NCBI GenBank assembly: GCA_011048835.1
Contig: DSDF01000034.1
Location: 1 to 48,386, forward strand
Reading direction: 5' to 3'
DNA: 48,386 nt
DNA from: Methanoculleus sp.
GTDB taxonomy: Archaea; Halobacteriota; Methanomicrobia; Methanomicrobiales; Methanomicrobiaceae
Of this stretch, positions 38,585-42,503 are shown in pieces. The first letter of the stretch is position 1; the number at the start of each line of letters is the position of its first letter. The notes beneath the pieces were generated by a model. It saw only the letters and a program-made list of their open reading frames with translations, was not told the DNA's origin and made no database searches. Both the position numbers and the translations under genes were made by a program.

Positions 38585-39397
38585 TCAGATATTGGTGATG
38601 GTGATATCGTACTGCTTGACGAACACCCGTTTCACATTTGATATGGTATATTCTTTGCCATTATGGGGGCCCAAGCCGTTTGGAGCTATTGACGATCCAC
38701 TGAAGTAGTTCTTCCATGCCTGGGAATAGTCATTGACAGTATCTGGATCATAGGTTACGGCAACGTGTGTTGGATCTACAAATTCTATAGTCCGGGCCAG
38801 CAAGCTGTTCTCATTCCTGCTCATCTGGAGGTTGCCGATGCCGTTGAGGGAGAGAGCCCGGGAGGAATCGAGCCTCATCAGGAAGATGACGAGGGTATCC
38901 GTGTCGTCATCATAGAACCAGCGCGGTTCTGCGAGCATGACCGAACCCGATGCGTCCTGCTGCCGCTTTACCACCGCCCCGTTCTCAAAGGAGATAACCG
39001 CCGTCCCCTGGTCGGAGACGTAGCGCAATTCGCCGGGTTTGAAATTGATGAAGTCAGCGTGCAAATCTTCCCAGGTCCCGTTATCCCACCATTCAAAATT
39101 GAATTTCTGGCTTGAGTCTGCCTTCTTATGCACAGTCAGGGCCCCGCCGGAGACCCGCAGGGCCGTGTCCTTGTAGGGCACGTTGCTGTAGGTGAGCAGT
39201 TTGATGTCGTTCTGGATCGTGATCATCGTCTGCTCCATGGTGCGCTCGTCCGCCCCGATCTGGTGCTGGAGCAGCATCGGGTACCCGTAGAGGGAGACCA
39301 ATCCGATGCCGGCGACCACGATGGAGAAAATGATGATAAACCCGATCGATTCGGAAACCGCACTCTCGTCCATTTGAAATATCCTTTGTATGCTCAT
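38585..39397 (-). CDS. Pilin-like anchored surface protein, last gene of the six-gene operon
   Basis: This 270-residue protein has a short polar start (RIFQMDESAVSES) then a hydrophobic helix (IGFIIIFSIVVAGIGLVSLY), matching the archaeal pilin N-terminus of DxAVSxxIGxI type (DUF1628/DUF7289-like). The remaining ~220 residues are beta-rich and extracellular: ALRVSGGALTVHKKADSS, LRYVSDQGTAVISFENGAVV and WFYDDDTDTLVIFLMRLDSS. The family has no known enzyme activity; the fold suits a minor pilin or pseudopilin. It overlaps the previous gene by four bases (ATGA), a sign of coupled translation. Confidence 0.85.
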   Translation of the reverse strand: MSIQRIFQMDESAVSESIGFIIIFSIVVAGIGLVSLYGYPMLLQHQIGADERTMEQTMITIQNDIKLLTYSNVPYKDTALRVSGGALTVHKKADSSQKFNFEWWDNGTWEDLHADFINFKPGELRYVSDQGTAVISFENGAVVKRQQDASGSVMLAEPRWFYDDDTDTLVIFLMRLDSSRALSLNGIGNLQMSRNENSLLARTIEFVDPTHVAVTYDPDTVNDYSQAWKNYFSGSSIAPNGLGPHNGKEYTISNVKRVFVKQYDITITNI

Positions 39398-39855
39398 GTA
39401 TACCCACTCGAGTCATAGGAAATCCTGTTCAGTCCGTTGCCGGTCGTCTCTCCGGTCACCGGGCGGGTCGCCCCGATGCCTCCCAGCGCGATGCTGCTGC
39501 GGAGGTTGTAGTCGGTCACGATGATCCGCTGTGCTGCACCCTCGCCGTCGAGCTGCACCCAGTATTCCTGCTTCGCCACGTCGTCGGGGAGGTCGAACTT
39601 CGTGGTGATCGTTCCGTTGCCGGGGGCGATGACATAGAGGTCCACGATCCGGACGCTGACCCCGTTGCCGATATCGGTGAAGCTGTGGAACTTGAGGGTG
39701 TCGGAGGGGCCCGAGATGAAGGCTGCGTTGACGGCGAACATGACGATGACCAGCAGCACCACCAGTACGCCGGAGACGGTGATGTACTCGAGCAGGCTGG
39801 AAAGGCCCTCTTCATCAAGGTGTTTTCGGTCGCGATAGCAGGAACGTCTCATCAT
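39394..39855 (-). CDS. Pilin-like small membrane-anchored protein
   Basis: This 153-residue protein has a basic start (MMRRSCYRDRKHLDEEGLSS), then the hydrophobic helix LLEYITVSGVLVVLLVIVMF with Glu near its start, as in type IV pilins (Glu at +5 or +6 of the mature protein). The rest is a small beta domain: VSVRIVDLYVIAPGNGTITT and DYNLRSSIALGGIGATRP. It overlaps the preceding gene by 41 bases, an unusually large overlap. Haloarchaea have comparable short anchored proteins in pilus-related clusters (DUF7266-like, by recollection). Confidence 0.82.
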   Translation of the reverse strand: MMRRSCYRDRKHLDEEGLSSLLEYITVSGVLVVLLVIVMFAVNAAFISGPSDTLKFHSFTDIGNGVSVRIVDLYVIAPGNGTITTKFDLPDDVAKQEYWVQLDGEGAAQRIIVTDYNLRSSIALGGIGATRPVTGETTGNGLNRISYDSSGYT

Positions 39856-40246
39856 ATTCGGTCACTCCATTGTTGAAATGAATTTTAATCCGGGTATAAC
39901 TGTTATAGGAGTCGGACATCGCCCCCGTCTTGAAGGTAGGATCTGAAGAATAATCGGGAGCATACTTCACCACGGTATTTTTTCGAACCATGGAGAGGGT
40001 GACGAGATCTTTCATTATATCATCAGCTTCTCCATCACCAACATACTGTTCCCAATTCTTGGCGATCTCAATCATCTCACTGCGCAGGTCCTGGATGTCG
40101 TTTTTCGGGAATTCCAGCACGCCCTCGGAGGTCGTCTGGCCCACCACCGTCGACTGGGCGATGATGATGGCAAGGAAAAAGATCCCGACGCAGACCATGA
40201 AGCCCATCAGCACGATCCACTGGCCCTCGTCGTTCAACCTCTCCAT
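39815..40246 (-). CDS. Pilin-like anchored protein
   Basis: A 143-residue protein whose N-terminus MERLNDEGQWIVLMGFMVCV ends a short acidic leader with EGQ, like the archaeal prepilin peptidase site ([KR][GA]Q) but with Glu in place of the basic residue. The hydrophobic helix (VLMGFMVCVGIFFLAIIIAQ) follows immediately. The rest of the protein, after EMIEIAKNWEQYVGDGEADD, is soluble and ends in FNNGVTEYDETFLLSR. It overlaps the upstream gene by 13 bases. The function is unknown; operon context suggests a minor pilin. Confidence 0.82.
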   Translation of the reverse strand: MERLNDEGQWIVLMGFMVCVGIFFLAIIIAQSTVVGQTTSEGVLEFPKNDIQDLRSEMIEIAKNWEQYVGDGEADDIMKDLVTLSMVRKNTVVKYAPDYSSDPTFKTGAMSDSYNSYTRIKIHFNNGVTEYDETFLLSRPKTP

Positions 40247-40818
40247 AGCAGCACCTCCAGGAGCACCACCTGCGCACGTTCATCAACATCATGATTCAGG
40301 GTTATTTGAGGCTTGGGATTCGGAGGATAATGTTTTGCATCGATCGTGACGAACCTCGTAACCCGCACCGCAGGCTCCCTGCTCACTAAATCACTACGGG
40401 CGTCATTGCCTGAGCTGCAGAAATGATAACTCTGAATTTCGCTTTCATTTACGGGCGGAGATTCCATCCGATAATAGATCGTCGCATTGAACTGGATATC
40501 GTTGACAACCGTTTTTTTCGGGTCGGTCGTTCGTGTGATGTTATCCAAAAAATATGTCCTGAAATCGGTGCTGTTGTCCGTTACGATGAGTTTTTCAAGG
40601 ATGTTCTCGCCGCTCCCGTAGATCTCCGGCTCGGTGTCGGGCAAATCCATCATCGCCAGCGCATCGCTGCCCAGCTGCTGGAGCTGCATGTCCGTTATAT
40701 GCACGTCACCGGGCGTGTACACCGTGGTGGTGCCCAGCACAAGGTAGGCGGTCAACAGCATGAGCACGCCGGCGGCGAACCCCTCGAGGGTGTACATCTG
40801 GGCCTGGTCGTTTACCAT
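40234..40818 (-). CDS. Pilin-like anchored protein, DUF7288-like
   Basis: This 194-residue protein begins MVNDQAQMYTLEGFAAGVLM, an acidic leader (ND-Q-A-Q) followed by Glu inside the hydrophobic helix AAGVLMLLTAYLVLGTTTV, consistent with a pilin-like N-terminus. The helix TDMQLQQLGSDALAMMDLPD follows, then a beta-rich C-terminal part that ends in DERAQVVLLEVLLWRG. This matches, by recollection, the haloarchaeal DUF7288 pattern. It overlaps the upstream gene by seven bases. An alternative start at 40824 would add two residues. Confidence 0.83.
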   Translation of the reverse strand: MVNDQAQMYTLEGFAAGVLMLLTAYLVLGTTTVYTPGDVHITDMQLQQLGSDALAMMDLPDTEPEIYGSGENILEKLIVTDNSTDFRTYFLDNITRTTDPKKTVVNDIQFNATIYYRMESPPVNESEIQSYHFCSSGNDARSDLVSREPAVRVTRFVTIDAKHYPPNPKPQITLNHDVDERAQVVLLEVLLWRG

Positions 40819-41882
40819 ACACACACCTCCAGGACGCCGTCCGTAAGGGTGGGCAGGGTCATCACATTATCGGGATCCTGATAATTATATTCGAATGTGC
40901 CGTTGATGAATTGTTTTGTTTTATTCACATCAATGAAATCGTAGTCAAGGCTCATTTTGACCGTCAAAACCGTGTCGGTCTCATAGGCGAATGGAAGCGG
41001 CGGTGCGAGTATCAACCGGATTTTCGAGACGTCATTGAGCTGGCAATGATCATCAAGGGTGTGATAGGTAGTAGCACCACTGTTATCCTCCAGAATGAGC
41101 TGATAGGATTCGTCGTCCTGTATATCATACCCGAAGGGGATCTCTCCAGCAACCCCCTCTTTGTAGAACCGGGTCCCGTTGAGCCACACCTCATTGGTAT
41201 CTGTAGAGTTCAAACTCTGATCGAAGTTCTCAAATGTGATATTGACAGGCTCAAACCGGGGATCGATCCGGTACGCCTCGCTAATCGATTTATCGTAGAG
41301 TTTGGCGTAGTCGAGCTCCACAGAGAAATATGTAGTGGTCCGATTTTCCTCAGTTTCTGAACGGACTAAATTAGTACAGTCTATTGAAGCATAATGCGGC
41401 TCCTTCACCTTTACCAGGCGGCGGATGTAGCCGTAGCTTCGTTTGGGAACGTCATCGCCCCGCGGTGGTAGCAATTCATCGCCGACCTTGAGGGCAATAT
41501 TGTAGGCATAGGGAGCGTAGGGCATGTCGGCGAAGATCACCTTCTGCCCGTAGTCCTCGTCGGTAAAAAATGAATCATTGAAAAATCGGTTGATTTTCGC
41601 GCGGGAAAGCACGTTGGGGGTGTTTGCGGAGACCGCGAGGCCCAGGCGGTGGATATCGTCCTTGTGGTATTCGTCTTTCAGCTCCCAGGGGGGGTTGGCG
41701 GGCCAGCCCGGGTCCTCCACCAGGATGACCCCCGTGCGGTAGGCGACCGCATCGTAGTCGATGTTCTGGCTCTCGAGGCCGATCATGATGCCCGGGACCA
41801 TGTTGATCACCATGATGAGGGCGAGAATGAAGATGGTGAACCCGGCCAGAAAATCCACGGAAAGCATCGCGCTGTCATCCAT
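40812..41882 (-). CDS. Large pilin-like anchored protein (DUF7287-like start)
   Basis: A 356-residue protein starting MDDSAMLSVDFLAGFTIFIL; the acidic DDSAM leader and Asp in the helix resemble the other members of the cluster. The helix is followed by a conserved-looking YRTGVILVEDPGWPANPPWE, then IHRLGLAVSANTPNVLSRAK, which also occur in haloarchaeal DUF7287-type proteins as I recall. The remaining ~240 residues form a large beta-rich ectodomain, with a predicted ligand strand RTTTYFSVELDYAKLYDKS and several Asn-X-Thr/Ser sites that could be glycosylated outside the cell. The start ATG shares its A with the stop TGA of the lipoprotein gene upstream. Confidence 0.83.
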   Translation of the reverse strand: MDDSAMLSVDFLAGFTIFILALIMVINMVPGIMIGLESQNIDYDAVAYRTGVILVEDPGWPANPPWELKDEYHKDDIHRLGLAVSANTPNVLSRAKINRFFNDSFFTDEDYGQKVIFADMPYAPYAYNIALKVGDELLPPRGDDVPKRSYGYIRRLVKVKEPHYASIDCTNLVRSETEENRTTTYFSVELDYAKLYDKSISEAYRIDPRFEPVNITFENFDQSLNSTDTNEVWLNGTRFYKEGVAGEIPFGYDIQDDESYQLILEDNSGATTYHTLDDHCQLNDVSKIRLILAPPLPFAYETDTVLTVKMSLDYDFIDVNKTKQFINGTFEYNYQDPDNVMTLPTLTDGVLEVCVW

Positions 41883-42454
41883 CACTCTGATAGGATCAAC
41901 TCCCCTGATTCTGCGTCGAAAGACAGGTCGCTCATCCGGGCTCCGTTTCTGGCATAGACCCGGTATACCCCGTCGATGAGCTCGAGGCTGATCTCTGTTG
42001 CCTCCGAGATCTCCAGCAGTTCCTGCATGGTTTCGCCCTGTGCTGCGAAGAGATCCTCCGGGCTCATGATTGCGTCCATGTCGATGGCGGGCGTGCCGAA
42101 CTGCTCGGGCCACGAGTACGCCTTCCAGGCATACGCGTCATAGACGAGGAGCGCGGTGGCGTTGTCCCGCGTGGTGGCGCCCAGGATCCAGACGGTCGCG
42201 GTCCCGTCAAGCTCCACGCCGGCACCATTGATCTGGTGGATGGCCATATTCTCCGCTGGCAGGAATCCCTCGGATTGGGCAAAGGCGAGGTCGTCAAGGG
42301 CATACCCGAGGGTGACCCGGTATACTTCCGCGGGCAGGGTGATATCGGTGATGCCCTCGCCCTCCAGCGTACTCTCGGCTGCAGGTGCCGTGATGCAGCC
42401 ACACATAAAGCAGAGCGCAACGATTATAAGTACCAGGAAACTGCGATAATCCAT
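41882..42454 (-). CDS. Operon-leading secreted lipoprotein, uncharacterised
   Basis: The 190-residue protein has a signal peptide with lipobox-like end: YRSFLVLIIVALCFMCGC, with the final Cys as the likely lipidated residue. The mature part is acidic and small, with VTLGYALDDLAFAQSEGF, TATVWILGATTRDNATALLV and ELIDGVYRVYARNG, suggesting a compact alpha/beta fold without recognisable catalytic motif. It is the first gene of the six-gene minus-strand operon. Its TATA box lies at 42494-42503 and AAGGATAC precedes the ATG at 42454. It may be an assembly or anchoring factor for the pilin-like proteins, which is inference from context. Confidence 0.82.
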   Translation of the reverse strand: MDYRSFLVLIIVALCFMCGCITAPAAESTLEGEGITDITLPAEVYRVTLGYALDDLAFAQSEGFLPAENMAIHQINGAGVELDGTATVWILGATTRDNATALLVYDAYAWKAYSWPEQFGTPAIDMDAIMSPEDLFAAQGETMQELLEISEATEISLELIDGVYRVYARNGARMSDLSFDAESGELILSE

Positions 42455-42493
42455 ATTGAGTATCCTTAATCAATTCTTACTTTTAAGTGGAAC

Positions 42494-42503
42494 CATATAA
42501 ACG
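42494..42503 (-). promoter_or_regulatory. TATA promoter of the pilin-like operon
   Basis: On the minus strand CGTTTATATGG lies about 40-50 bases upstream of the ATG at 42454, placing the start site near 42475. AAGGA follows as a ribosome-binding sequence. No other promoter is seen within the six overlapping genes. Confidence 0.65.

Follow-up and report, generated by a model that had tools for sequence, protein, structure and literature searches.

A conserved operon of archaeal type IV pilins in Methanoculleus, with mosaic ectodomains and a probable assembly motor encoded elsewhere in the genome

The DNA considered here (hereafter the window) is a stretch of 48,386 nucleotides from a Methanoculleus sp. 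(assembly GCA_011048835.1, contig DSDF01000034.1), whose minus strand carries an operon of six genes, one for a lipoprotein and five for predicted type IV pilins of different protein families. The promoter contains a TATA-box-like sequence, TTTATAT (42495..42501, minus strand), followed by a Shine-Dalgarno-like AAGGAT ahead of the first ATG (42454); both elements are kept in two sister species, in which the whole stretch from the TATA sequence to the ATG is nearly identical. Gene 1 (41882..42454, minus strand) encodes a lipoprotein with a lipobox of the form ..CGC and is not a pilin. The remaining genes, all likewise on the minus strand, are gene 2 (40812..41882), a DUF7287 pilin (Pfam PF23958, E 8.5e-8, 33.3 bits against a cut-off of 27); gene 3 (40234..40818), a DUF7288 pilin (PF23959, E 2.7e-10, 41.4 bits, above the curated cut-off); gene 4 (39815..40246), a DUF7261-like pilin assigned through profile matches to proteins in the same slot of the gene order; gene 5 (39394..39855), a DUF7266-like pilin (PF23928, E 3e-4, 21 bits, under the cut-off of 27.6); and gene 6 (38585..39397), a DUF7289 pilin (PF23960, E 1.2e-19, 71.3 bits, above the curated cut-off). 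A first-pass annotation of the window had described six overlapping open reading frames behind one TATA promoter, with overlaps of 1, 7, 13, 41 and 4 bases, had named a haloarchaeal DUF7287/7288/7289 group as comparable, and had noted that neither an assembly ATPase nor a prepilin peptidase was encoded nearby. These points all hold: the coordinates are correct, the promoter is conserved, the named families are those matched by genes 2, 3 and 6, and no protein with a T2SSE (assembly ATPase) or A24 (prepilin peptidase) domain occurs in the window, such proteins being found on other contigs of the genome.

Genes 2 to 6 have the layout of archaeal type IV pilins, namely a short charged leader, a peptidase-type site and a single N-terminal hydrophobic helix. 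The putative leaders are acidic (for example DEG/Q or DESA/V, the slash marking the site), reading MDDSA/MLSVD in gene 2, with Asp at +5 and an invariant C-terminal EVxxW in the alignment, VNDQA/QMYTLEGF in gene 3 (also from the alignment), LNDEG/QWIVLMGF in gene 4, DEEG/LSSLLEY in gene 5 and MDESA/VSESIGF in gene 6. The leader motif was scored with our own regular expressions, written after the published FlaFind rule. In its relaxed form it is present in 13/17 sequences of gene 2, 23/23 of gene 3, 24/24 of gene 4, 25/27 of gene 5 and 34/34 of gene 6. The strict [DERK][GA] motif, which only some of the five proteins of the window genome possess, is found in 7/17 sequences of gene 2, 1/24 of gene 4, 21/27 of gene 5 and 23/34 of gene 6, as well as in 23/23 of gene 3, a count that may include later matches inside the start of the helix. 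No Pfam family matches gene 4 itself significantly, and its place in the DUF7261 slot is assigned because its profile matches same-slot proteins in several lineages, which in turn weakly match DUF7261 (E 0.0003-0.03, below the cut-off). Gene 6 is the one pilin that was folded, genes 2 to 5 being judged by their leader and helix sequences; the AlphaFold model, built on 34 sequences, has a 60-residue N-terminal helix (residues 11-70) and, after it, an all-beta domain (mean predicted local distance difference test score, pLDDT, 93.0; predicted template modelling score 0.83), so that the pilin-like helix expected of this protein is present in the prediction. When the gene 6 profile was compared with the sequences of the PDB, the top three matches were archaeal PilA-type pilins (E 0.01-0.04), with the similarity confined to the N-terminal part. 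As judged from sequence, therefore, genes 2 to 6 are an archaeal type IV pilin set in the order DUF7287, DUF7288, DUF7261-like, DUF7266-like and DUF7289. As a separate observation, gene 5 of Methanoculleus UBA77 (locus L232) has a C-terminal part with no more than about 20-33% identity to any of the others, for which a frameshift or an assembly error may be responsible.

The lipoprotein encoded by gene 1 has no match in Pfam or NCBIfam. Its AlphaFold model is a tandem alpha/beta fold (pLDDT 85.5), and the best match in the PDB, its one significant relative, is the C. difficile lipoprotein CD1622 (4exr; E 4.5e-5, template modelling score 0.48-0.58); by our own inspection of the modelled topology and of the D-x-x-T/S-G-E end, the protein appears PepSY-like. 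Some genera lack gene 1; in Methanomicrobium no copy was detected at L051, L230 and L235, and the lipoprotein is for that reason placed outside the core of the operon. The core itself is widely conserved. DUF7289 occurs in 28/28 genomes surveyed within the family and in 98/119 genomes sampled across the phylum, and gene 2 has hosts that include Methanoculleus, Methanogenium, Methanoregula, Methanofollis, Methanolinea, Methanocalculus and Methanomicrobium. The 20 loci retrieved within the family, as far as they were listed, share the same six-gene order between DUF1015/HisG and aIF1A, except for one Methanomicrobium locus without the lipoprotein gene, and the six loci retrieved from other Methanomicrobiales families keep this order too, usually with DUF1015/HisG before and aIF1A after it. 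The comparison of gene order in relatives thus bears out the grouping of these genes. In one haloarchaeon (L090:13792-14148), an aIF1A homologue also lies shortly after DUF7289, like the neighbour of gene 6 in Methanomicrobiales, which is a single case but perhaps reflects ancient synteny.

The relationship of the pilin set to an assembly motor becomes apparent outside the Methanomicrobiales. In four haloarchaeal loci (L087-L090), the pilin genes stand directly behind a T2SSE ATPase (PilB) and TadC; L090 has all five pilin slots in the order of the window, while L087 and L088 have the same order with some slots missing. In six other lineages (L091-L096), the pilins and ATPase/TadC lie within one locus. 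An adjacent ATPase/TadC pair thus accompanies the set in haloarchaea and these further lineages. The first-pass annotation had suggested looking for a neighbouring PilB/PilC pair in other Methanomicrobiales; none lies near the operon in those checked, and in the window genome ATPase and TadC are on another contig. In that genome, T2SSE domains occur in three proteins. One is the archaellum motor, on contig C23; the second, on C12, is an ATPase of the PilB type; and the third, on C21, is a PIN-domain protein of a cytosolic kind. The C12 ATPase contains PilB3_C and, marginally and just under the cut-off, PilB3_N; it is followed by two T2SSF proteins (TadC), and no pilin gene was seen beside it. 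Upstream in the same locus (G000:C12, L005:8880-14064) is a conserved protein of about 209 aa with no Pfam match. The window genome has a single A24 match, close to the PIN-domain ATPase on contig C21. In relatives, the neighbours of the C12-type ATPase include an A24 prepilin peptidase in some and MinD/ParA in others; such a peptidase gene adjoins the ATPase locus at L153:10143-10949 (by Pfam) and at L154:11239-12075 (by sequence likeness). Three stand-alone PilA (PF07790) pilins are encoded on contigs C78 and C114 of the window genome.

Two lines of evidence indicate that the PilB3-like ATPase and the two TadC proteins on C12 are probably the motor of the window operon. The stronger argument is elimination, since in four genomes (G000, G003, G134 and G027) only a PilB3-like ATPase and an archaellum-type ATPase were found. 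The second is co-occurrence among 60 genomes of Methanomicrobiales, each at least 90% complete, in which DUF7289 was scored at E<1e-9 with gene 2 as an extra probe. The orthologous PilB3-like ATPase is present in 54/60 genomes, at 61% identity or above, and the missing six belong to one genus; DUF7289 is detected in 50/60, to which the gene 2 search adds two genomes with the operon at contig ends. Accordingly, 52 genomes have both operon and ATPase (52/52 of those with the operon), six have neither and two have the ATPase without a detected operon, the absence in the six counting as one independent loss event because they form one clade. In the genus lacking both (L147-L149), another type IV pilus ATPase occurs, close to which lie PilA-like pilins and weak relatives of DUF7289, a picture that agrees with what Makarova 2016 reported for Methanocorpusculum labreanum (PMC4858521).

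These results bear on how the pilins are assembled. That the five proteins form a self-contained, pseudopilus-like or spontaneous surface complex requiring no ATPase would fit the lack of an ATPase gene in the operon and the conservation of this ATPase-free layout in the Methanomicrobiales loci seen. However, homologous sets are linked to ATPase/TadC, a PilB3-like motor is encoded elsewhere in every operon-bearing genome, and PilB modules acting in trans are known from experiment (PMC6491452), which makes such a complex very improbable. Of the two interpretations offered by the first-pass annotation, that of minor pilins served by a machine whose genes lie elsewhere is thus better supported, the PilB3-like motor being present in 52/52 operon genomes, whereas a self-contained structure is unsupported because the same set stands directly behind PilB and TadC in haloarchaea and other lineages. 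Archaellins, like these pilins, have class III leaders, ArlI is the sole other assembly ATPase found in the genome, and at two loci (L097:13584-16319 and L098:12970-16140) an ArlD/E-domain protein of 911-1056 aa lies directly ahead of the DUF7287 gene, which raises a possible link to an archaellum-type stator. The five proteins could accordingly belong to the archaellum as accessory subunits, with ArlI/ArlJ as their motor, but in haloarchaea and further lineages the set adjoins TadC and an ATPase that is not of the archaellum, there are no arl genes at the window operon, the archaellin/ArlI/ArlJ locus being on contig C23, and the genus without the operon has lost the PilB3-like ATPase too; we therefore regard an archaellar role as improbable. 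We consider it likely that genes 2 to 6 encode structural or tip (minor) pilins of a clade-2-type euryarchaeal type IV pilus, assembled by the C12 ATPase/TadC in trans. The sequences compared directly show which families are present, that their order is fixed, that each protein has a leader followed by a helix, and that PilB/TadC is linked to the set in other lineages. Several findings weigh against this assignment. A Foldseek search of gene 6 against the PDB returned no solved structure alike at E<=0.001, the literature gave no experiment on the operon genes, two draft genomes have the ATPase but no detected operon, and in an ATPase tree with long branches and weak resolution the Methanomicrobiales ATPase forms its own clade, apart from the ATPases adjacent to the set. 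Because this tree does not group the motors, the partnership rests on elimination and on co-occurrence with its one loss event, and the idea that the Methanomicrobiales motor is an orthologue of the set-adjacent motors elsewhere is unsupported. A separate ATPase clade fits the modular evolution described by Makarova 2016 (PMC4858521), without being positive support.

The new element of the present findings is that the ectodomains of four of the five pilins are mosaic. In comparison with a sister species, scanned in 90-bp bins so that the borders are approximate, the window contains four islands of low DNA identity on the minus strand: in the ectodomain of gene 2 (40830..41424; 56-67% identity, the flanking genes being about 91-99% identical), of gene 3 (40260..40700; 44-68%, with three allele classes within Methanoculleus) and of gene 4 (39895..40075; 48-49%), and in the C-terminal portion of the ectodomain of gene 6 (38585..38900; 46-77%). 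Identity falls from above 90% to 44-68% within the mosaic genes and rises again at the next leader. Against one sister species (L037), synonymous divergence (dS) is 0.11-0.23 in the flanks, 0.12-0.15 in genes 1 and 5, and 0.54-0.93 in genes 2, 3, 4 and 6, although the first 50 residues of these four proteins are 96-100% identical and only the remainder drops to 46-73%. Gene 5 has no island and is conserved from end to end, its identity to the sister species being 93%. Over 170 close pairs, which share species and are hence non-independent, the median ratio of ectodomain dS to flank dS is 2.9 for gene 3, 1.7-1.9 for genes 2, 4 and 6, and 1.1 for gene 5, while the leaders of genes 2 to 6 have a dS below 1 relative to the flanks. 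AT-richness was dropped as a general signature of the islands; it is clear across loci in genes 3 and 4 and fails for genes 2 and 6.

Surface proteins evolve fast, and the ratio of non-synonymous to synonymous divergence (dN/dS) of about 0.3 exceeds that of the flanking genes, so that the divergence of the ectodomains might be attributed to plain rapid evolution under relaxed or diversifying selection, with no exchange of alleles. Point positive selection as the cause of the raised dS is rejected, because dN/dS is about 0.3 and dS itself is elevated. Rapid evolution in general is unlikely as well, since synonymous divergence is raised too, the borders after the helix are sharp, and the history of the alleles departs from that of their surroundings. 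The gene 3 ectodomains of Methanoculleus fall into three classes, which were assigned on the gene 3 identity matrix prior to building the flank tree, with about 62-79% identity within and 42-60% between them. On the DUF1015+HisG tree, these classes need six changes where the minimum is two; holding class II together on the DUF1015+HisG data is rejected (approximately unbiased test, p-AU 0.0006), whereas the gene 3 ectodomain tree groups the classes. The gene 3 classes contradict the species tree, which therefore indicates that the ectodomains have been exchanged by recombination. In two Methanoculleus (L192 and L178), moreover, the gene 4 ectodomain differs by a dS of only 0.02 while flank dS is 0.33, which marks the recent transfer of one pilin gene by itself. 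For genes 3 and 4, ectodomain distances do not track flank distances (r 0.10 and -0.14, respectively). The mosaic pattern is thus best explained by recombination between species. Among ten pairs of ectodomains, uncorrected for multiple testing, genes 2 and 4 (r 0.31, p 0.009) and genes 5 and 6 (r 0.40, p 0.002) stand out for co-variation; with two of ten such pairs only, no strong conclusion about a fixed complex is drawn.

Taken as a pilus system, the operon would work as follows. The prepilin peptidase with the A24 match (contig C21) would cut each pilin before its helix, and the PilB3-like ATPase with its two TadC platform proteins (C12) would pull the cleaved pilins from the membrane into a filament, the bulk subunits of which may be the three stand-alone PilA pilins. 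The gene 1 lipoprotein would sit on the membrane, probably aiding pilin folding or assembly. Gene 5 and the helices of the pilins would form a fixed core, while the ectodomains of genes 2, 3, 4 and 6 would face outward and bind a variable partner, whether a surface, a partner cell, DNA or a virus, and would be replaced through recombination between related species. These outward parts are swapped between species and are therefore suggested to be what the cell shows to its surroundings.

The operon belongs to an already known kind, the type IV pilin sets of euryarchaea with a motor encoded in trans. Makarova 2016 described euryarchaeal pili with such pilin sets, ATPase modules acting in trans and modular evolution (PMC4858521), and the first-pass view that the methanogen version is undescribed was therefore too strong, even if the name DUF7289 was not found in any paper by our literature search. 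The closest counterpart is the PilB4-locus type of clade 2 (PMC4858521, Figure 4B), which likewise has several distinct pilins in one operon, includes a duplication-prone pilin of about 250-550 aa (arCOG02911, probably DUF7289 if our matching of arCOG to DUF is right) and, in many euryarchaea, two TadC genes, as does the motor of the window genome; in haloarchaea, ATPase and TadC are followed by these families in an identical order. Unlike that type, the window set has no adjacent ATPase/TadC, is led by a lipoprotein gene and has ectodomains that are recombinational mosaics. In Haloferax volcanii, PilB3-C3 is a pilin-free assembly module acting on pilins encoded elsewhere (PMC4858521, PMC6491452), and the ATPase of the window genome is alike in its PilB3 domains; the H. 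volcanii PilA pilins, however, are stand-alone and mutually homologous, whereas the window set comprises five different families in an operon. Among methanogens, the Epd pili of Methanococcus maripaludis, with the major pilin EpdE and the minor pilins EpdA-D, several of which are required for piliation, are needed for natural transformation (PMC4371748, PMC10133366); they are type IV pili too, but of a clade-1 system with an EppA peptidase. Variation of the Neisseria PilE or flagellin type similarly combines a constant N-terminal helix, a variable exposed domain and recombination, but exchange in the window set appears to take place between species and in minor-type pilins.

In Methanoculleus thermophilus, a species for which allelic replacement is reported (PMC10133366), a type IV-like pilus is reportedly required for natural transformation (Fonseca 2020, as cited in PMC10133366), and on the strength of that report the operon becomes a candidate for DNA uptake. 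DNA uptake and adhesion may be the leading roles of the pilus, the operon being known in other Methanoculleus species. As a more speculative possibility, which we rate as rather doubtful, the operon might encode the variable recognition tip of an adhesion or DNA-uptake pilus of the Methanomicrobiales, its four ectodomains passing between species independently of one another, with at least three classes for gene 3, under the influence of viruses or partner recognition, in which case the pilus may even take up the very DNA by which its tip is diversified. The present assignment attributes genes of "unknown function" across an order of methanogens to a type IV pilus and names its probable motor. 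In addition, the exchanged ectodomains point to strong pressure from outside the cell, and would be a place to seek virus receptors or partner-recognition factors in methanogens.

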